From: Halorussus limi
Lineage (GTDB): Archaea; Halobacteriota; Halobacteria; Halobacteriales; Haladaptataceae
Length of the DNA: 64,000 nt
Reading direction: 5' to 3'
Assembly (NCBI RefSeq): GCF_023238205.1
Contig: NZ_CP096659.1
Span: 2,869,626 to 2,933,625 of the forward strand
Shown here: positions 7,325 through 17,433 of the stretch, piece by piece
Position numbering within the stretch: position 1 is the stretch's first letter
How the letters are laid out: the number at the start of each line of letters is the position of its first letter
The notes under the pieces: model-generated
Told to the model about the DNA's origin: nothing
The model's database searches: none
Seen by the model: only the letters and a program-made list of their open reading frames with translations
Made by a program: the position numbers and the translations under genes

Positions 7325-8008
7325 GTGCTATCGGTCGAGCTTCACGCCCACTCGTCGCTGTCGTACGACGGCCGGGACCCCGTCGACCTCATGCTGGAGC
7401 AGGCCGCCGCGGTCGGACTCGACGCGCTGGCGGTCACCGACCACGACGAACTCTCGGCCAGTCTCGAAGCGGCCGAGAAGGCCGAGGAGTACGGACTCGT
7501 CGGGATTCCGGGGATGGAGATCAGTTCCGCGGCGGGACACGTCCTCGCGCTGGGGGTCTCCGAGCGGGTTCCCGCGGGCCTGTCGTTCGCCGAGACGCTC
7601 GACCGAATCCGCGAACAGGGCGGCGTCGCGGTCGTTCCTCACCCGTTCCAGAAGTCCCGGAGCGGCGTGATGGCCAACATCGGAAAATCGGAACTCGCCG
7701 AGGCTGACGCCATCGAAGTGTACAACTCCCGACTGCTGACCGGCCGGGGCAATCGGAAGGCCCGGCGGTTCGCCGAGCGCCGCGGTCTGCCCCAGACCGC
7801 CGGAAGCGACGCTCACATCAGCGAGATGGTCGGGCAGGCGGTCACGCGAATCGACGCCGACGAGCGCAGCGCCGCGGGCATCCTCGACGCCATCCGCGAC
7901 GGCCGGACGACCGTCGAGGGCAAGCGCACTCCGTGGCACGTCAGCTTTCGGCAGGCCGCGGGCGGGGCCAAACGCCGGGTGAAGAACCGACTCGGCGAAC
8001 TCCTCTGA
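7325..8008 (+). CDS. PHP-domain metal-dependent phosphoesterase
   Basis: A 227-residue protein using a GTG start: VLSVELHAHSSLSYDG. An ATG nine codons upstream adds MPSACEPPP, which does not look native. PHP-domain metal ligands are visible in order: HAHSS at the N-terminus, TDHDE, GMEIS, HPF and GSDAH near the C-terminus. Such stand-alone PHP proteins hydrolyse small phosphoesters or nucleotides (the RNase AM/YciV type is the closest general model); the substrate is unknown. Its stop overlaps the next gene's start as TGATG, so the two are translationally coupled and likely act in one process. Confidence 0.82.
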   Translation: MLSVELHAHSSLSYDGRDPVDLMLEQAAAVGLDALAVTDHDELSASLEAAEKAEEYGLVGIPGMEISSAAGHVLALGVSERVPAGLSFAETLDRIREQGGVAVVPHPFQKSRSGVMANIGKSELAEADAIEVYNSRLLTGRGNRKARRFAERRGLPQTAGSDAHISEMVGQAVTRIDADERSAAGILDAIRDGRTTVEGKRTPWHVSFRQAAGGAKRRVKNRLGELL

Positions 8009-9129
8009 TGACCGAGCGCGAGGCGTCCCCGGAGATGCGCGGCGCGTCGGCCGAGCGCGTCGCGGAGGCGGTCGCAGCGCGGGAGTCGCTGTTCGACTCG
8101 CGGGGGTTCGCGGGTCGGCTTCCCGACGATCGCCTCGTCCGCGACTCGCTCGGACGCCAGCCGATTTTCGCGGAGGGTGACGGGGACGCCGAGTGGTCGT
8201 TCGCTCCGGGCGACCTCGCCGACCCCGAACCGCTTCCCGCGGGACACGTCTGCGACCCCGCGAGCGGTGATTCCGAGCAGATTTTCTCGCTCCCCGACCC
8301 GCCGACTGCGTCCGACGCCCGCGAAGCAGTCCTCGACCTCGAAGGCGCGCTCCGGGAGGCGCTGGCGTCCGTCGCGCCCGACGACCTCGCGGTCGCATTC
8401 TCGGGCGGCGTCGACTCGGCGGTGGTGGCCAGCGCCTTCGACGCGCCGCTGTACGTCGTCGGCTTCCCGGAGAGCCACGACGTCGCGGCGGCCCGGCGCG
8501 CGGCCCGCCTGATGGGCCGAGAGGACGCCCTGCGCGTGGTGGAACTGTCCCCGTCGGACGCCGAGCGCGCGGTGCCCGAGGTGGCCCGCGCGACCGGTCG
8601 GACGAACGCGATGGACGTGCAAATCGCGCTTCCGCTGTACCTCGCGGCGGAGCGGGCCGCTCGCGACGGCTACGACCGACTCGCGGTCGGGCAGGGCGCG
8701 GACGAACTGTTCGGCGGGTACGCGAAGGTGGCGCGAGCGCCCGAGGACCCCCGCGTCGAGGCCGAGACGGTCCGCGGTGCCGCCCGCGAGGCCGTCGGGA
8801 CGCTCCCGGACCAACTCGAACGGGACGTGCTGGCGCTGCGCGCGGCGGGCGTCGAACCGGTCGCGCCGCTACTGGACGACAGAGTGGTCCGGACCGCGCT
8901 CTCGCTTCCGGGCGACCTGCTGGTCGATTCCCGGGGCGAGCGCAAGAAGGCGTTCCGACTGGCCGCCCGCGAGTTCGTGCCCGACGGGGTGGCGTTCCGC
9001 GAGAAGAAGGCGGTCCAGTACGGCAGTCTGGTCGCCCGCGAGGTGGACCGACTGGCCCGGCAGGCCGGGTTCAAGCGCCGCATGGACGACCACGTCTCGA
9101 AGTACGTCGCGTCACGGGTCGGGGAGTAG
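8008..9129 (+). CDS. Stand-alone asparagine-synthase C-terminal (AsnB-like ATP-pyrophosphatase) domain protein
   Basis: A 373-residue protein with the PP-loop AFSGGVDSAVVASAF near residue 131 and the downstream GQGADELFGGYAK segment of asparagine synthetase B. The N-terminal glutamine amidotransferase domain of AsnB is absent; residues 1-115 instead form a short unrelated leader region. It could amidate or adenylate a carboxylate using free ammonia or another amine. The start codon shares one base with the stop of the PHP gene (TGATG), so coupling is strong. Whether it makes asparagine or modifies another substrate cannot be decided. Confidence 0.8.
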   Translation: MTEREASPEMRGASAERVAEAVAARESLFDSRGFAGRLPDDRLVRDSLGRQPIFAEGDGDAEWSFAPGDLADPEPLPAGHVCDPASGDSEQIFSLPDPPTASDAREAVLDLEGALREALASVAPDDLAVAFSGGVDSAVVASAFDAPLYVVGFPESHDVAAARRAARLMGREDALRVVELSPSDAERAVPEVARATGRTNAMDVQIALPLYLAAERAARDGYDRLAVGQGADELFGGYAKVARAPEDPRVEAETVRGAAREAVGTLPDQLERDVLALRAAGVEPVAPLLDDRVVRTALSLPGDLLVDSRGERKKAFRLAAREFVPDGVAFREKKAVQYGSLVAREVDRLARQAGFKRRMDDHVSKYVASRVGE

Positions 9130-10142: not shown

Positions 10143-10303
10143 GTAAGCGATTTATTCAGAACCGGGGTTAATTAACTTTCTTAAATGTCAAGACGACGCG
10201 CCTATTCGAAAGGGGATTAGCGTGTTTCGACGTACCCCTCCGAGAGGTCGCAGACACGTCTAATCACGACCGCGCACCTACAATTCCTTAACGCGCCGTA
10301 GTG

Positions 10304-10322
10304 TCAACTTAGCCTACCCTAA
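10304..10322 (+). promoter_or_regulatory. Candidate DtxR/IdeR-type iron box
   Basis: The 14 bases TTAGCCTACCCTAA (10309-10322) match the right-hand 14 bases of the DtxR/IdeR consensus TTAGGTTAGCCTAACCTAA at 13 positions; the full 19 bp match at about 15. Haloarchaea carry DtxR-family regulators (Idr, SirR). The site sits just upstream of a TATA element (TATATTAA, 10329-10336), where a bound regulator would compete with or assist TFB. Confidence 0.45.
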
Positions 10323-10362
10323 CCTCCGTATATTAATTCGGCAGTGTGTTGTGGGTCTGGAC

Positions 10363-10608
10363 ATGCAGAACGCCGACCGGGAACGAACATTCCTCGCAGC
10401 GATTCGCCGCAGAACGAGCGTCGCGTGGGTCGTGGGGCAGTCCTCGGCGAGGTACTTCTCCCGGAACGTCGCCGAGATGGGGTGGAGAGATAGACTCTTT
10501 CTGCCGGTCGTCGCCGTGCTACTGCTCGCGCTTGCGCTCCTCGCTCCGGACCTCCTCTCGGACGACACCTTCGGAGAACTGTCGCCCCACGCTCCGGTTT
10601 CGGTCTGA
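10363..10608 (+). CDS. Small single-TM membrane protein, possibly iron-regulated
   Basis: An 81-residue protein starting MQNADRERTF. A GTG four codons upstream is possible, but the ATG at 10363 lies 30 nt after the TATA box TATATTAA, as expected for a leaderless gene. Residues 1-45 are basic and soluble; residues about 48-64 (LFLPVVAVLLLALALLA) form one transmembrane helix, followed by a short acidic tail. I do not recognise the family. The candidate DtxR-type box before the promoter hints at iron-dependent expression, perhaps a small accessory protein, but that is inference. Confidence 0.5.
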   Translation: MQNADRERTFLAAIRRRTSVAWVVGQSSARYFSRNVAEMGWRDRLFLPVVAVLLLALALLAPDLLSDDTFGELSPHAPVSV

Positions 10609-10627
10609 GGAACCGGCACGGGCGGAA

Positions 10628-12430
10628 TTACTCGTCGTCGTACCCCGACCCGTCGGCGATGACCGCGGTCGGGTCGGTCCGGAGCGGTCGCTCGGGTTCG
10701 TAGTCGGCAGTCGCCACCAGCGTCAGTAGGTTGTAGAGTTCCCGACCGGCGTACTCCTCGCCGTTCCGAACGACGGTGCCGAGCGCGGCGTCGTCGAACG
10801 GCGTCTCACCGGCCCGCCGGACCTCGGTCGCCAGTACGTCGGTGAGTCCGTCGCTCGCGCCGTCCCTCAGCAAGGAGGCCACGGTGTCTCGCAGACTCGG
10901 ATACCGACTGACCAGGTCGAGCGCGAGCGTCTTCGCTTTGTGCCTGAGGGAACTGACCGGCGCGTCGTAGTTGGCGTTCTCGATGTCGCACAGCGCCGGG
11001 TCCAACTCCTCGAGGAAGGCCGCCTGCAATCTGCTACGGCGCTTCTGGTCGGCGGGTACGTTCATCGCGTACTCGAAGAACGGGAGCGAGTAGAACGGCG
11101 AGACGCTCCAGCAGTAGTAGCGATTCCGGTCCTCGCCGTGGTTGAGCCAGTTGATTCCCCGCTCTCGGACGAGGAAGTGGACGTACTTGGCGTCGTAGGT
11201 CCGTTCCGGATACGACTCCAACCGGACTTCGACCGATTGGACGAGTCGCTCGCGAGAGACGCCCGTGAGGGTCGTGACCTCCTCGGGGTCGAAGATGCTG
11301 TGAGCGTCCACGACGAACTCGGCGAGGTCACGCCGAGAGTCGAACTCCCGCGGCGGAGTCAGGTCCGGAAGCGCCTTGTCGCCGCCGTCGCCCGTGACGT
11401 AGGTGAACTTGCCGTGACGGGCTTCGATTTGTTCGAGGAAGTCCAGCAGGAACGACATCGCGAGGAAGTTCAGTCCCTGCTTCATCTCCAGCAGGTCGGT
11501 CCGATGGCCTTCGGTGCGTTCGACGGCGTAGCGCTCCCACTCGGCGTCGAGCGCGTCGGCGATGCTCTCGGCGAGTCGGACGTCTGCGGTGTTCGCCTCG
11601 TTCGGCTTCTCGAAGGTCGCGGTGGCGTAATCGGCTCCGATAGCCTCGTACCCACCCGCGACGGCCCGCGAGTCGAGGCCGCCGCTTAGCGAGACGACGT
11701 TCGGAAGGTCGCCCGTGTCTCGGTTCGCGCAGGCCGTCTCGAACCGGGACGCTAACTCGCGGGCGTTCTCCCGAACGCTCCGGTCGCCTCGGGGCGTCCC
11801 CTCGAAGTCGTGTCGATAGAGGCTCTCGACGCGAACGTCGCCGTCGATGCGAACGTAGGACCCCGGCGGGACGGGTTCGACCGAGTCGAACAGGGTCCGA
11901 GTCCCGAGTTGATACCCGAAGAGGAGCGTCTGGGCGAACGCCGTCACGTCCGGTTCGAGCGAGTCGCCGTAGTGGCGGGCGAGACTGCGGACGAACTTGA
12001 GTTCGCGGGAGAGGACGACGTTCTCGCCGACGGTCGCGTGGTAGACCGGCAGTCGAGCGAAGGCGTCGTTCACTACCGAGAGCGCCCCGGTGTCTCTCTC
12101 GTAGGCCAGAAGCAGGAAGTCTCCGTCGCGGTCGGAGAGCCACGCCCGGACTTCTTCGAGACGCTCGTCGAGGAGTTTCGAGCCGATGGACCGGAGATGG
12201 CGCTCCTCGTCGTTCACGTCGTAGAGGTGTCCTTCGAGGAGGTAAATCGCGTCAGCGGTCTCGACTGTCTTCACGGGGTATTCAGCGTAACCAGTCGACC
12301 CGAGAAACGAGGTACCGTCTGCTGCGTGGACTGTTCGCTCGTAGTCCTCGCGGAAGCAGACAGTGCGGAGCGACGCCTCCTCCGCTCCCTTCCCAGTCGT
12401 CTGGCCCTGAACGAATGAAATTCCGGGCAT
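10628..12430 (-). CDS. Asparagine-synthase-related protein lacking the glutaminase Cys
   Basis: A 600-residue protein starting MPGISFVQG at 12430; the upstream ATG at 12508 would add 26 polar residues. The overall layout is AsnB-like: an N-terminal class II glutamine-amidotransferase-like domain (about 1-180), then an ATP-pyrophosphatase domain with the PP-loop VSLSGGLDSRAV around residue 240. The catalytic Cys2 of true AsnB (MCGI) is replaced by Pro (MPGI), so glutamine cannot be hydrolysed at the usual nucleophile. Such proteins occur in haloarchaeal surface-polysaccharide and N-glycosylation clusters. Location near a flippase and two Tat-secreted surface proteins suggests amidation of a sugar or surface precursor, which is inference. 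Confidence 0.8.
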   Translation of the reverse strand: MPGISFVQGQTTGKGAEEASLRTVCFREDYERTVHAADGTSFLGSTGYAEYPVKTVETADAIYLLEGHLYDVNDEERHLRSIGSKLLDERLEEVRAWLSDRDGDFLLLAYERDTGALSVVNDAFARLPVYHATVGENVVLSRELKFVRSLARHYGDSLEPDVTAFAQTLLFGYQLGTRTLFDSVEPVPPGSYVRIDGDVRVESLYRHDFEGTPRGDRSVRENARELASRFETACANRDTGDLPNVVSLSGGLDSRAVAGGYEAIGADYATATFEKPNEANTADVRLAESIADALDAEWERYAVERTEGHRTDLLEMKQGLNFLAMSFLLDFLEQIEARHGKFTYVTGDGGDKALPDLTPPREFDSRRDLAEFVVDAHSIFDPEEVTTLTGVSRERLVQSVEVRLESYPERTYDAKYVHFLVRERGINWLNHGEDRNRYYCWSVSPFYSLPFFEYAMNVPADQKRRSRLQAAFLEELDPALCDIENANYDAPVSSLRHKAKTLALDLVSRYPSLRDTVASLLRDGASDGLTDVLATEVRRAGETPFDDAALGTVVRNGEEYAGRELYNLLTLVATADYEPERPLRTDPTAVIADGSGYDDE

Positions 12431-12822
12431 TGTGGATTGGTCCAGAACCTGTGGGTGTATTGTTATATTGTAGTTGTGACTGAATTTCGGGGACGATGAG
12501 CGCGACAAGCGAGGGCTGAAACAGACAGTATGATTACAATTACGCCGAAGTTATCCGGAGAGTAGCGGGTGGCTGCTCCCGAGTCCACCAACACCGTTGT
12601 CGCCGGTTCGTACGTCCGAACACGGGCCTTAGCCTGACCATCGACAGCAACAGGACCCGGCGCTCGGTTGTAACGTTCGCCGCGTAAACGTTCGAAATAT
12701 TCCCGTATAGCTATCGGTGGCCTCGTGGTCCCCGTGACAGTCGTGAAACGTATTCAGGCACCCCCTGAACTCCAAATAGGTGCTACAATTGGAGGCAACT
12801 ACGCGCAAAGAGTGCTCGGCGA
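12431..12822. other. Intergenic region upstream of the asparagine-synthase-like gene
   Basis: 392 nt with no credible gene. A TATA-like ATATAACA (minus strand, about 12462-12470) is about 35 nt from the start at 12430. At 12753-12769 TTCAGG and CCTGAA form a 6-bp stem with a 5-nt loop, 54 nt past the stop of the beta-helix gene, possibly an end-of-transcript structure. No tRNA or repeat seen. Confidence 0.45.
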
Positions 12823-14313
12823 TTAGGAGCCGTCTTCGACGCGGACGTTCGCAGGGCCGTCGAGTCGGAACCCCGTAATCTCACCGGAGAAGCGGTAGCC
12901 GTCCTTTCCGCCGATGACTCGGCCGGAGATTTTGCCGTCGGTGATGGTGTCGTGGTCGTTGACCGACCCGAGCGCGGCGCTCTTACGGGCCGTGCCGCTG
13001 AACTCCACGGTGTACTCGCTGGACCGTCGAGGGGCGTTGCTTCCGTCGATAACGAGTTTGTTCGGAAGCACGAGGTCGTTCACGCTGACCTCGTTACCGC
13101 CGTACTTCAGCGTCCACTTACTCTCGTCGAGGTTCATCGAGACGATGTCGCCGTCCACGAGGAAGGAGTCGCCGTAGCCGTTGCCCGAGAGGCCGGAGAC
13201 TGTGACCGTCCCGTCGCCGTTACTCGTGACGGTGTCGTTGTCCTCGGCGGCCACGTCGCCCGACGAGGTGCGCTTCTGGACGCTCCCCTCGACCGTGAAC
13301 TCGTAGGTCGTGTTCGAGGTGGACGACCCGGCGACGAGTTCGAGGACCGTTCCGGCGGCGTTCGAGTCGTCGGGACTGGTCGTGGTCGAATCGGAACTAT
13401 CGCCGGTACTCGTCGCGCCGCTCGCGGCCTCTTTCGCGGTCGTCGGCACGCCGTTCGGTATCCGGTAGCGAGGGGTGCCGGCAGAACTGCCGGAGATGCT
13501 GGCGCTGTCGACGTAGGTGTGGGTGCCCCCGGAGAAGCGCGTGTTCTCGAGTTGGACTACGGCGGGCGACTGCCACGAACCGTCGCTGGCGTAGATGCCG
13601 TTGTGGATGTCGCAGTCGATGAGCTTCGTGGTGTTGTAGAAGCCCCAGTAGCCTCGACCCGCGCCCTTGCTCACGCAGTTCTTGCAGTACGAACCGTCGG
13701 TCCCGAGGCGGAAGTCCGCCGTCGGGTTGTCGGCGGCGTAGGAGTTCGTTATCTGTACCGTCCCGCCGCCGCCGGGGTTGGGGTGGTCGTCGTGGTTACC
13801 GGGACCGCTCGCGTAGACGCCGTTGCCCGCCCATCCCTGAATGTTCACGCGATCGATGTCGATGTGACCCGTGTGATACGCGTGGACGAAGATGCCCGTC
13901 GTCAGGCCGGCGGGAGCGTCGTACCCGCCGTCGCCGAGGTAGACGTTCTCGATGGTTCCGGACCCGCCGTTGGGGCACATCGCCACGAGGGGGTCGTCTA
14001 CGTTGGCGTCGAAGTAGCCTTTCACGCCGACGTTGCGAATCGCCCAGCCGTCGCCGTTGGCCGAGATGCGGTAGCCCGCGCCGTCGGCGGAGATGTCGAT
14101 GAGCGCGTTTTCGAGTGTGTCGCCGTCTCCCAGACTGAAACTCCGCACTTCGCCCGCGGGGACGGTAATCGTCTGGAAGTCGTCTGCGGCGCTGACGCCC
14201 GTGCTGAGTGCCGCGGCGGATATCGCGGCCGACCCGGCTAGCCGGAGATAGTTCCGTCTGCTGACGTTCGATGCCTCTCGTGACGGCTCACGTGCCGTTT
14301 CGTCGCGTGCCAT
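12823..14313 (-). CDS. Tat-exported right-handed beta-helix surface protein with two C-terminal modules
   Basis: A 496-residue protein starting MARDETAREP. A Tat signal is clear: SRRNYLRLAGSAAISAAAL followed by STGVSA (cleavage near residue 44). The next about 250 residues are rich in Gly/Asn/Asp with short beta repeats such as TIENVYLGDGGYD and IDIDRVNIQGWAGNGVYASG, typical of a parallel beta-helix that binds or cleaves polysaccharide. A Ser/Thr/Asp linker (about 305-335) leads to two copies of an about 70-residue beta module (about 345-420 and 430-496). The same module makes up the protein encoded at 16297-16932. It lies between the AsnB-like gene and a flippase, fitting a role in surface glycans. 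Enzyme activity is not shown. Confidence 0.75.
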   Translation of the reverse strand: MARDETAREPSREASNVSRRNYLRLAGSAAISAAALSTGVSAADDFQTITVPAGEVRSFSLGDGDTLENALIDISADGAGYRISANGDGWAIRNVGVKGYFDANVDDPLVAMCPNGGSGTIENVYLGDGGYDAPAGLTTGIFVHAYHTGHIDIDRVNIQGWAGNGVYASGPGNHDDHPNPGGGGTVQITNSYAADNPTADFRLGTDGSYCKNCVSKGAGRGYWGFYNTTKLIDCDIHNGIYASDGSWQSPAVVQLENTRFSGGTHTYVDSASISGSSAGTPRYRIPNGVPTTAKEAASGATSTGDSSDSTTTSPDDSNAAGTVLELVAGSSTSNTTYEFTVEGSVQKRTSSGDVAAEDNDTVTSNGDGTVTVSGLSGNGYGDSFLVDGDIVSMNLDESKWTLKYGGNEVSVNDLVLPNKLVIDGSNAPRRSSEYTVEFSGTARKSAALGSVNDHDTITDGKISGRVIGGKDGYRFSGEITGFRLDGPANVRVEDGS

Positions 14314-14445
14314 GCTACCTTCAATGCTTAACCCATGTTTTAAGTATTTTCCGGTTTCATGAATGTACAATCGAGACGGAGCTTTGCTCGAACCAGAGAC
14401 GTGAGAACCTGAGACGGGTCGATTCGATAAGGGCACTGAGAGACA

Positions 14446-15924
14446 CTACTCGCTCAGCAGGAACGATTTGGTCGAACTGATATCTAAGAGGCCCGTTCGT
14501 ATCGCCAGCACGGACCAGATGGCGACGCCGAACAGCACCACGCCGACCAGCGAGAACACGTCGGAGACGTACCGAGTAGCCAAGAGAACCGGAACGCCAA
14601 CCCCGGCCGTGACGACGCCGACGAGCGCGACCGGCCGAACCAGTCGCTTCGAGTCCAGCGGGAGTTCCGAATACATCACGAAGACGTTAGTGAACGTGTA
14701 GATTCCGAAGGTAATCACGGTCGCGACGGCGGCCCCGACGACGCCGAGTTTCGGGATGAGAACGAGATTCAACAGGAAGTTGGCGACTGCCGTCGAACCC
14801 TTCGCGATGGCCCGAACGCGCGCCCGACCGAGGAAGTCCAGCGCCTTCGTGGTGGTCTGGTTGACGGCTCTGAGGACCACGTAGACTCCGAGGACCTGCA
14901 GGACCGGCGCGGCGCCGAGGTACGCCTCGCCGAAGACGATGCGAATCGTCGGTTCGGCCACGATGATGACGCCGACCGCACCGGGGAGATACAGAAGCAG
15001 GGTGTACTCCAGCGTCTTCCGGTACATCCGGGCGGCCTGGTCAAGTTGCTCGTTCACCTTCTGCTCGCCGTAGGTCGGCGAGATGGAGAATCCGAGCGAC
15101 CCCGCGAGGACGGTGAGCGACGAAGAAATCTGCTTGGCGAGCGTGTAGAACCCGACCGCGGCGGGATTGAGCAGGACGCCGATGAGGATGGTGTCGATTT
15201 TCGTGTTGAGGACGCCCGCCCCGCGAGTAATCATCATCGGCGCGCTGTATTCGAGAATCCGCCGGGAGAGGCCCTCCTCGGGTTCGTCGGCCTTCTCGTA
15301 GTTGCTGTAGAAGTACTTGTAGAGGACGCCGAAGCCGACGACCATCGCCAGCGCGGCACCGACGAGATACCCCAAGAGGGCACCGAGCGCGCCGAATCCG
15401 AGAACGAAGACGAACAGGACCGCGAAGATAATTCGGTTGACGTTGTTCACGACCTGCACGAGCGCACTCCACGAGACGCAGTTGAACCCCTGAAAGAGCA
15501 GGCTGTTGAAGACGCTGAGCGAGTGGAACCCGAGGTACACCGCGCCCACGAGCAGTAGCGGTGCGACCGCGGGTTCGCCGATGAGTCCGGCGATGTAGTT
15601 CCTGCCGAGCGCGAGGGCGCAACCGACGATGCCGATGAACAGCAGTCGGTACTTGAGCGCCGTCTCGAAGACGTACGGGACCTGCGAGGCGTCCGACTCC
15701 TTGAACTCCGTCACGTAGCGGGCGGCGGACTTGGCGAGACCGAGGTCGCTGAACAGGCGCGCGACTCCGATGACAGAGAGCGCGAGAAACAGGATACCGT
15801 ACTCGTCGGGGCTGAGGAGGAACCGGGTCAGCAGGACCATCAGGACCGCGTTCGAGAGGACGTGGACGGCCCGCGCCAGCACGGTCATCTTCAGTCCTCG
15901 GGCGAGGCTATCTTTCACAGCCAT
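14446..15924 (-). CDS. Oligosaccharide flippase (Wzx/RfbX, MATE-like superfamily)
   Basis: A 492-residue polytopic membrane protein with 12-14 predicted helices; the N-terminus (MAVKDSLARGLKMTVLARAVHVLSN) and the pattern 'LLTRFLLSPDEYGILFLALS' are typical of the polysaccharide transport family, which moves lipid-linked sugars across the membrane. In haloarchaea similar proteins (AglR-like) act in N-glycosylation or exopolysaccharide export. It lies 132 nt upstream of the beta-helix gene on the same strand, so they may be separate transcripts of one functional group. No glycosyltransferase is adjacent, so the exported sugar cannot be named. Confidence 0.88.
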   Translation of the reverse strand: MAVKDSLARGLKMTVLARAVHVLSNAVLMVLLTRFLLSPDEYGILFLALSVIGVARLFSDLGLAKSAARYVTEFKESDASQVPYVFETALKYRLLFIGIVGCALALGRNYIAGLIGEPAVAPLLLVGAVYLGFHSLSVFNSLLFQGFNCVSWSALVQVVNNVNRIIFAVLFVFVLGFGALGALLGYLVGAALAMVVGFGVLYKYFYSNYEKADEPEEGLSRRILEYSAPMMITRGAGVLNTKIDTILIGVLLNPAAVGFYTLAKQISSSLTVLAGSLGFSISPTYGEQKVNEQLDQAARMYRKTLEYTLLLYLPGAVGVIIVAEPTIRIVFGEAYLGAAPVLQVLGVYVVLRAVNQTTTKALDFLGRARVRAIAKGSTAVANFLLNLVLIPKLGVVGAAVATVITFGIYTFTNVFVMYSELPLDSKRLVRPVALVGVVTAGVGVPVLLATRYVSDVFSLVGVVLFGVAIWSVLAIRTGLLDISSTKSFLLSE

Positions 15925-16296
15925 CCGGCTTCCTCCGTCGAGTAGCCCCCGTTCGCGTCGATTTCCCGACCCGCACCGAGGCCAGATACGTCTCGGAGGC
16001 GGTTCGCCGACCTACTCATGTTGAGCGTATCAAAGCCCGAGACGGCTTTTGTTCTATCCGGCATGTTCCGTTCTTACGCTCTCTGTACTCCCGAGTTAGG
16101 ACGGGCCTGTCCGCCGTCTCAGTCTGACTCGGCCGTACTCGGAATCGTCTCGCCGTCCGACAATCCGCGAAACTCCGGGAAACGACGCGTTGCTATCCCA
16201 AATCCTCGCTAATCGAGGAGAAAAGCAGTTTAATCTGGGTTGAGAAACATCACCCGTTAAACACCTCCGAGCGGTCGGTTGTACCGGGTACAGACG
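15925..16296. other. Divergent intergenic region between flippase and Tat-secreted module protein
   Basis: 372 nt with no credible gene. On the plus strand TATA-like boxes occur at about 16229 (GTTTAATC) and 16255 (GTTAAAC). Just before the ATG at 16297 is the 13-nt palindrome TGTACCGGGTACA (16280-16292), a possible operator or leader hairpin. Confidence 0.45.
16280..16292. promoter_or_regulatory. 13-nt palindrome adjoining the start of the 16297 gene
   Basis: TGTACC-G-GGTACA, perfect apart from its odd central base, ends 4 nt before the ATG. It could be an operator near the transcription start or a small hairpin masking the start codon. Confidence 0.35.
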
Positions 16297-16932
16297 ATGC
16301 CTGACGAAACACGAGACGCCGAAGCGACCGACGGAATCGACCGAAGAACTGTGCTGAGAGGGGCGACGGCCGCCGGAATCGCCGGCGTGGGGGCAGTCGG
16401 GACCGCGAGCGCCGAGGAGTGGAAGCGACTGCGATTCAAGTCCGCGGGTGACGAGACGTTCCGATACCGCGTCAGCGTCAGCGGGGAACTCAAGCGCGAG
16501 GCCAACCGCGACGGCTACGACACGCTCGTTGACGACAACACGGCCGAAGGCGCGGCCAGCGGGGGCGGATACGACGACTGGCTCTTCACGGGGGACATCA
16601 CCGAACTGGACCTCGAAGGGCCGGGGATGGTGCTGAAAGAGGGTGAAGTCGTCGAAGACACGACCGAAGACGAGAAACTGACGAACACCGTCACGCTCGA
16701 AGCCGACGAACGAGTCTCCTACAAGTTCCGCGTCTCGGGAAGAGTCGAGAAGGGACCGAAGGCCGGGACGCTCGGCGTGGACAGTATCGAAGACAACGTC
16801 GTCCGCGGGAAAGTCGGCGGTTCCATCGAGGGCAACTCCGACCCGGTGGACGACTACCGCTACTCGGGGTCCATCACCGTCGAGGAGGCGAGCGGTCCGC
16901 TGACGGTGACGCTGGACATCGACGGGTCGTAG
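16297..16932 (+). CDS. Tat-exported protein made of two surface beta modules
   Basis: A 211-residue protein starting MPDETRDAEATDG. The Tat motif DRRTVLRGATAAG is followed by a hydrophobic stretch and TASA-E, giving a mature chain from about residue 45. The mature protein is two copies of a module with the pattern Y-x-V-x-V-SG-x-(L/V)-K ... D-x-(I/L)-x-D ... G-x-(V/A)-x-G-G ... D-x-(Y/W)-x-(F/Y)-x-G-(D/S)-I-T ... G-P. The same module occurs twice at the C-terminus of the beta-helix protein at 12823-14313, so the two proteins probably share a binding partner or assemble together. Family otherwise unrecognised; function unknown. It converges with the Nudix gene. Confidence 0.65.
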   Translation: MPDETRDAEATDGIDRRTVLRGATAAGIAGVGAVGTASAEEWKRLRFKSAGDETFRYRVSVSGELKREANRDGYDTLVDDNTAEGAASGGGYDDWLFTGDITELDLEGPGMVLKEGEVVEDTTEDEKLTNTVTLEADERVSYKFRVSGRVEKGPKAGTLGVDSIEDNVVRGKVGGSIEGNSDPVDDYRYSGSITVEEASGPLTVTLDIDGS

Positions 16933-16950
16933 CGAAAGCACGCCGGCCGA

Positions 16951-17433
16951 CTACTCGGACCGCGATTCGACTTTTTCGATGGCTTCCGAGCCGATTTGGA
17001 CCACTTCGGTCGTGAGGTCGTCGCGACTGCGCAGGTCCTCGGGCGTGAACCAGACCCACTCGTCGGCGTCGGCCTCGTCGTCTCCCTCGGGGTCGACGTC
17101 CCGGTTTGCGGCCTCGGCGAAGTAGACGAAGTCGATGTGCTGGTGGCCGACCTCGCCGTCCGGATACACGTCGATGTCGAACAGCATGACGTGTTCGGCG
17201 GGCGGGAGTTCCCGGCCCGCCTCGACCGAGACGTCGGTCTCGGGTTCGAGCAGGTCCACGTCGAGGCCGGTCTCCTCGCGGACCTCGCGGCGGGCGGCCT
17301 CTCGGGGGAGTTCGTCGCGGTCCACGTGGCCGCCGGGCGAGAGCCACATGTCGAGTCGGTCGTGGTGGTGCAGGGCGACCGCGCCGTCGTTGACGACGTA
17401 GGTCGTCGCGGTGAAGTGGCGGGTGGTTTCCAT
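16951..17433 (-). CDS. Nudix hydrolase
   Basis: A 160-residue protein with a complete Nudix box, GX5EX7REUXEEXGU: GGHVDRDELPREAARREVREETGL (written here only as its ends GGHVDRDE and REVREETGL), residues about 34-57. These residues bind Mg and cleave nucleoside diphosphates linked to another group. The remainder of the chain forms a standard single Nudix fold, with an acidic insertion AEAANRDVDPEGDDEADADEW-like stretch near residue 110-130. Substrate not predictable. It lies downstream of tfb on the same strand, 254 nt away, and converges with the Tat-module gene. Confidence 0.88.
   Translation of the reverse strand: METTRHFTATTYVVNDGAVALHHHDRLDMWLSPGGHVDRDELPREAARREVREETGLDVDLLEPETDVSVEAGRELPPAEHVMLFDIDVYPDGEVGHQHIDFVYFAEAANRDVDPEGDDEADADEWVWFTPEDLRSRDDLTTEVVQIGSEAIEKVESRSE

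Follow-up and report, generated by a model that had tools for sequence, protein, structure and literature searches.

Two proteins encoded in a 64,000-nucleotide stretch of the Halorussus limi genome (contig NZ_CP096659.1; hereafter the window) end in the same repeated module, and we asked what this module is and what it might do. The original prediction, which was made from the letters of the window and its open reading frames, described two Tat-exported proteins, P1 and P2, around an oligosaccharide flippase, and we found the reading frames to be as described (Table 1). P1 has a Tat signal, a right-handed beta-helix (approximately residues 45-300), a Ser/Thr-rich linker, and two C-terminal modules. 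The match of P1 to the Pfam Beta_helix model is below threshold (0.19), and P1 groups with the beta-helix family. Apart from its Tat signal, P2 consists entirely of two modules.

Table 1. Features of the window and of the S-layer locus of H. limi. Coordinates refer to the window unless marked as contig or L184 (locus-local) coordinates.
Feature	Coordinates	Strand	Remarks
AsnB1 (second AsnB-like gene)	7933-9129		outside the insert
Insert	10211-16940		about 6.7 kb; AsnB-like, P1, flippase, P2; edges approximate
AsnB2 (AsnB-like enzyme)	10628-12508	minus	PF00733, 2.6e-7; inside the insert
P1	12823-14313	minus	496 aa; start ATG at 14313, end at 12823
Module P1b	12826-13068	minus	reaches the C terminus of P1
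Module P1a	13072-13353	minus	most divergent copy; longer central insert
Wzx/MOP-type oligosaccharide flippase	14446-15924	minus	PF01943, 7.7e-33, 114.5 bits (cut-off 28.2)
P2	16297-16932	plus	start ATG at 16297
Module P2a	16414-16659	plus	
Module P2b	16678-16929	plus	
NEW3/CARDB-repeat gene	L184:44-1780		S-layer locus; candidate membrane anchor partner
Short S-layer-like gene	L184:1858-3015		S-layer locus
S-layer glycoprotein	contig ~2,790,170-2,793,256 (L184:3671-6757)		about 76 kb upstream of the window

That the four segments are copies of one module, as had been proposed, is borne out by three kinds of comparison. P1 and P2 match each other with E = 2e-8 (blastp with composition correction). 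In five of the six pairs of copies, the real pairwise score was not reached by any of 500 shuffles, with Z scores of 6.3-9.7; the remaining pair, P1a and P2b, had Z = 2.6. An iterated hidden Markov model (HMM) seeded with the four copies converged, and at 35 bits or more it identified 79 copies in 36 proteins from haloarchaeal loci, so the profile search suggested at the outset both relates the copies to each other and extends them to many haloarchaeal proteins. Together, these results rule out a chance likeness between acidic haloarchaeal sequences. The repeat is thus real, although the module is nearer to 75-85 residues long than to the 70 first estimated. Among 20 diverse copies, a Tyr, an Asp, a Gly, another Asp, and another Gly are invariant and a Val is nearly so; the consensus is Y-x-F-x-V-S-G ... 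D-x-I/V ... G-x-V ... G-x-D-x-Y-x-F-S-G-x-I.

In agreement with the original prediction, which did not recognize a named domain, the module does not correspond to any family in Pfam, NCBIfam, or PHROGs. Scans of P1 and P2 against these three collections assigned no family to the module region, and neither did scans of 43 module proteins against Pfam and NCBIfam. No PDB chain matched P1, P2, or the module profile in sequence searches. These scans and searches rule out a known domain as the identity of the module; in particular, the Pfam matches of P1, P2, and the 43 module proteins do not include SLH or CWB2. A viral origin was also considered, and P1 had no relative in the viral contigs that we scanned. 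Our searches of open-access full texts turned up accounts of neither the module nor a Halorussus S-layer.

Structure prediction gave a confident all-beta domain. The AlphaFold model of the single module P1b (from 20 rows of alignment) consists of eight beta strands only, with a pLDDT of 95.2 and a pTM of 0.84, and the AlphaFold2 model of P2 (from ten sequences) has two all-beta domains, with a pLDDT of 86.8 and a pTM of 0.62. Foldseek did not find a match in the PDB at E ≤ 0.001 for either the two-module or the single-module model (the best E for the single module was 0.23), and viral predicted structures did not match the models either. The weak structural matches numbered 107 for the two-module model and 162 for the single module, with best VIA Z scores of 5.2 and 5.1, respectively. 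They include an archaeal chitin-binding domain (2cwr; Z = 5.1, rmsd 2.9 over 67 residues), DUF4425 (Z = 4.8-5.2), and cellulose-binding domains from C. fimi. The scores for 2cwr and DUF4425 are in the range of a common arrangement. The absence of a PDB fold match does not establish a new fold.

The module is widespread in Halobacteria. In this class, 202 of 292 genomes and 64 of 77 genera contain matches to its profile, and H. limi itself has the module in about a dozen proteins. Across a sample of the phylum, 36 genomes gave matches; all of them belong to the same order as H. limi and none lies outside the class Halobacteria, so by sequence matches the module is apparently confined to Halobacteria. 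It is usually in tandem and C-terminal, with one to seven copies per protein. The domains that accompany it in the 43 module proteins include beta-helix (13 proteins), subtilase (4), GH26 (4), polysaccharide lyase, and PKD. The module is therefore pan-haloarchaeal and is also found on proteases and lyases, which is a wider picture than the one first drawn from the window.

Most of these proteins seem to be exported by Tat and to lack any recognizable anchor. A Tat-like motif is present in 92 of 105 complete module proteins, C-terminal membrane segments and PGF motifs are absent from all of them, and a lipobox-like motif occurs in just one. In 82 of the 105, the last module lies within 20 residues of the end of the protein. 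Anchors are present in 1 of 90 Tat-like proteins with the module versus 9 of 36 Tat-like proteins without it from the same loci; this control set is limited in size, and its loci were not chosen at random.

Several architectures were recorded along the way. There are beta-helix proteins with 5-7 modules that reach 1,348 amino acids in length, and some of them add a C-terminal part of about 360 residues. Many paralogues of P2 (although not the P2 of the window) are followed by a Tat protein that begins with MNRERRAVLR and contains a VDTxLPPG motif; the two genes may form a conserved unit. A plasmid of Halorussus aquaticus (L113:4095-5585) and its relatives encode a polysaccharide lyase (PF14099, below threshold) with a module that is about 60-68% identical to P1a, and the lyase gene adjoins genes for a CDP-glycerol glycerophosphotransferase and a GT4.

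Where an anchor would be expected, the module is found in the S-layer glycoprotein of Halorussus. One of the module proteins of H. limi belongs to the HVO_2072 family of S-layer glycoproteins (NCBIfam TIGR04216, 535.8 bits with a cut-off of 400). TIGR04216 is above its cut-off in 11 of 18 Halorussus genomes, and the other seven have no such protein above the cut-off. In all 11 proteins, the match stops near position 755 of the 784 positions of the model; beyond it, a stalk rich in Thr and Asn leads to a single module and a short tail, and neither a hydrophobic end nor a PGF is present. The modules in these proteins match the HMM, which was built without S-layer sequences, with E values of 1.8e-12 to 6.9e-7. 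Outside Halorussus, the frame selected in five of 38 S-layer loci was a longer shadow frame, which left them unreadable; of the 33 readable S-layer glycoproteins, 32 end in PGF and a hydrophobic segment, one has another transmembrane end, and none has the module. In Haloferax volcanii, the C terminus of the S-layer glycoprotein is the site that archaeosortase A (ArtA) processes and lipid-modifies (PMC7157517).

Thus, in Halorussus, a folded module stands in place of the PGF-CTERM anchor of the S-layer glycoprotein, which the original prediction, with its view limited to the window, had missed. ArtA is present in all 18 Halorussus genomes; therefore, the anchor was exchanged rather than lost along with its pathway. 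We also considered whether an anchor might be hidden beyond the stop codon by a frameshift, but the downstream bases examined do not contain a frame with a PGF and a transmembrane segment. They contain one chance PGF, which lacks a hydrophobic stretch, and in H. limi the next gene ends about 50 bases away. After the module, the S-layer glycoproteins of H. limi and 10 other Halorussus genomes share a conserved tail with the motif NSSxVAP.

A second gene accompanies this replacement. In all 11 loci with a module-tailed S-layer glycoprotein, the same strand carries, upstream, the gene for a NEW3/CARDB-repeat protein of 578-581 amino acids. These proteins are 55-86% identical and keep a C-terminal hydrophobic segment. 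None of the 38 S-layer loci outside Halorussus has a relative of this protein within flanks of about 1.5 kb, and a partner farther off would be missed because those flanks are short. Several Halorussus genomes also encode, between the NEW3 and S-layer genes, a short S-layer-like protein of about 385 amino acids that corresponds to the C-terminal half of TIGR04216.

Returning to the window, P1 and P2 are encoded within an insert. Four Halorussus genomes share, at high identity, the order PHP, AsnB1, hypothetical, AsnB2, P1, flippase, P2, NUDIX, TFB, GatC, GatA. In the 10 other Halorussus genomes examined, the hypothetical gene adjoins NUDIX, and AsnB2, P1, the flippase, and P2 are missing. Because the four genes are all present in four genomes and all absent, with adjacent flanks, in 10, they were gained or lost as a unit, which may have been a single event in one clade. 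We relied on this comparison with insert-free genomes instead of plain synteny: conservation of the entire region among close species was discounted, as the housekeeping neighbors are equally conserved. Nucleotide similarity to the empty sites breaks off at about 10,180-10,210 and resumes at about 16,940-16,958. The GC content of the insert is 0.628, versus 0.698 and 0.666 in its flanks, and there are no convincing flanking repeats at its edges, as a mobile element might leave. AsnB1 is conserved in genomes that lack the insert and thus does not belong to the unit. For AsnB2, the nearest NCBIfam models are AsnB and a macrolactam cyclase, all below their cut-offs.

Module proteins outside this cassette are also found near glycan genes. 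Counting PF01943 flippases within 20 kb in Halorussus, 14 of 29 full P1-type proteins (1.4 expected), 11 of 21 other module proteins (1.0 expected), and 4 of 25 P2-type proteins (1.3 expected) are nearby; these counts include non-independent orthologous loci and represent roughly five distinct arrangements. All four P2-type cases are from the genomes with the cassette. Proximity to Wzx, which had been suggested as a check, is thus above expectation for the P1-type and other module proteins and does not go beyond the cassette for P2-type proteins. On a Halorientalis plasmid, a flippase and glycosyltransferases adjoin a module protein; on a Natronorubrum plasmid, the neighbor is a GT61, with a flippase near; and on a Halomarina plasmid, it is a nucleotide-sugar dehydrogenase, with a GT2 near. 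A plasmid of Haloferax gibbonsii has a module protein with an asparagine-synthase-related protein, a flippase-like lipopolysaccharide biosynthesis protein, and a GT2. The module was confirmed in all four of these proteins, and such cassette-like neighborhoods span four families of Halobacteria. A neighborhood in Halopiger, where the module match is marginal, is instead hydrolytic (alpha-galactosidase and arabinofuranosidase). The joint insert, the proximity to flippases, and the neighborhoods in other genera all support the surface glycan system that was proposed from the window.

What does the module do? We suggest that it is a domain for non-covalent retention at the cell surface, whose ligand would most likely be a surface or secreted polysaccharide, and we consider this reading to have about an even chance of being correct. 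We favor surface retention because the module replaces an anchor in the S-layer glycoprotein, because the proteins that carry it have no other anchors, and because of its terminal tandem position and its glycan neighborhoods. The attached domains (beta-helix, subtilase, GH26, and polysaccharide lyase) also count in favor of retention. The proteins would be exported via Tat, or via Sec for the S-layer glycoprotein, without a lipobox or membrane helix, and their one to seven terminal modules would then bind the surface component, which is how we understand the binding role that was first proposed. The cassette in the window, probably acquired horizontally, would join glycan modification and export (the AsnB-like enzyme and the flippase) to P1, a beta-helix protein presumably fixed to the surface by its two modules, and to P2, which may be a two-module adaptor or cross-linker. 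Halorussus has swapped the archaeosortase-processed PGF-CTERM anchor of its S-layer glycoprotein for one module. It counts against this reading that some of the proteins carrying the module, such as subtilases, have no obvious glycan role and that the likeness to carbohydrate-binding folds is weak (Z of 5.1 at best). Nor can the module be a general S-layer anchor, because Haloferax and others keep PGF-anchored S-layers alongside module proteins.

The module might instead bind a protein, with the S-layer glycoprotein of Halorussus docking on the membrane-anchored NEW3/CARDB-repeat protein in a two-component S-layer. The NEW3-repeat gene is present in every module-tailed locus and was not seen in the short flanks of the other S-layer loci, which is what this explanation would predict, but the argument is one of synteny, and module proteins in genomes with PGF-CTERM S-layers would need another ligand. 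We view protein docking as rather unlikely. A precedent is the S-layer of Sulfolobus, in which the lattice and the anchor are separate proteins, SlaA and SlaB (PMC8559796): there too, the lattice protein lacks an anchor of its own and a membrane-anchored protein is encoded nearby. In Halorussus, however, the candidate partner is a NEW3/CARDB-repeat protein, and the lattice protein is of the euryarchaeal HVO_2072 family.

Two other explanations were considered. As an ordinary carbohydrate-binding module, the domain would steer secreted enzymes to external polysaccharides and would play no part in keeping proteins on the cell. Its fusions to polysaccharide lyase, GH26, and beta-helix domains, the chitin- and cellulose-binding domains among its weak structural matches, and the neighborhood with alpha-galactosidase and arabinofuranosidase all fit this idea. 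Like CBM2 and the archaeal chitin-binding domains, of which 2cwr is among the best of the weak structural neighbors, it is a small beta domain on secreted polysaccharide-active proteins, but it matches them neither in sequence nor, with confidence, in structure. Moreover, the exchange of the S-layer anchor, the module-only protein P2, and the subtilases would be left unexplained, so we think that this is distinctly unlikely. Alternatively, the module could be a passive spacer, an acidic and easily duplicated beta domain that extends proteins away from the surface without binding a specific ligand. Copy numbers that vary from 1 to 7, as in filler repeats, and the lack of a confident functional fold match would be expected of a spacer. 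However, the complete or almost complete conservation of Y, V, D, G, D, and G in 20 diverse copies would not be, and the module is terminal, rather than interposed, in 82 of the 105 complete proteins and is located where the S-layer protein should have its anchor; we judge this explanation to be the least probable of all.

If the module is a retention domain, then its closest functional parallels would be the SLH and CWB2 modules of Gram-positive bacteria, which bind cell-wall polymers non-covalently (PMC8559796). Those domains are also small, tandem, and usually terminal, and they are also found on S-layer proteins and exported enzymes. However, they belong to bacteria with wall polymers and are predominantly alpha-helical (PMC8559796), whereas the module is predicted to be all-beta, is archaeal, is unrelated to them in sequence, and has no Pfam match to either. 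The comparison with PGF-CTERM and ArtA is of a different kind: the module occupies the same C-terminal place, after a Thr-rich stalk, in the same TIGR04216 family, but the Halorussus proteins have a folded domain instead of the PGF, the hydrophobic segment, and the basic tail. The mechanism of ArtA involves a processed lipid-attachment signal (PMC7157517). According to a review, no atomic data could be had for the anchoring domains of archaeal S-layers, and several mechanisms are probably in play (PMC8559796).

Overall, it is possible, at slightly under an even chance in our estimation, that Halobacteria have a hitherto unrecognized retention module and that Halorussus has abandoned archaeosortase-dependent lipid anchoring of its S-layer, which would be held non-covalently by the module on a glycan or on the transmembrane-anchored NEW3 partner. 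If so, there would be a second, non-covalent way to attach a haloarchaeal S-layer. Surface retention of proteins that lack lipid or membrane anchors becomes testable with a compact domain, predicted with confidence and shared by most haloarchaeal genera, that takes the place of an anchor in an S-layer glycoprotein. The module would also help to annotate many haloarchaeal proteins that are now "hypothetical," and it would offer a handle for displaying proteins on haloarchaeal cells.
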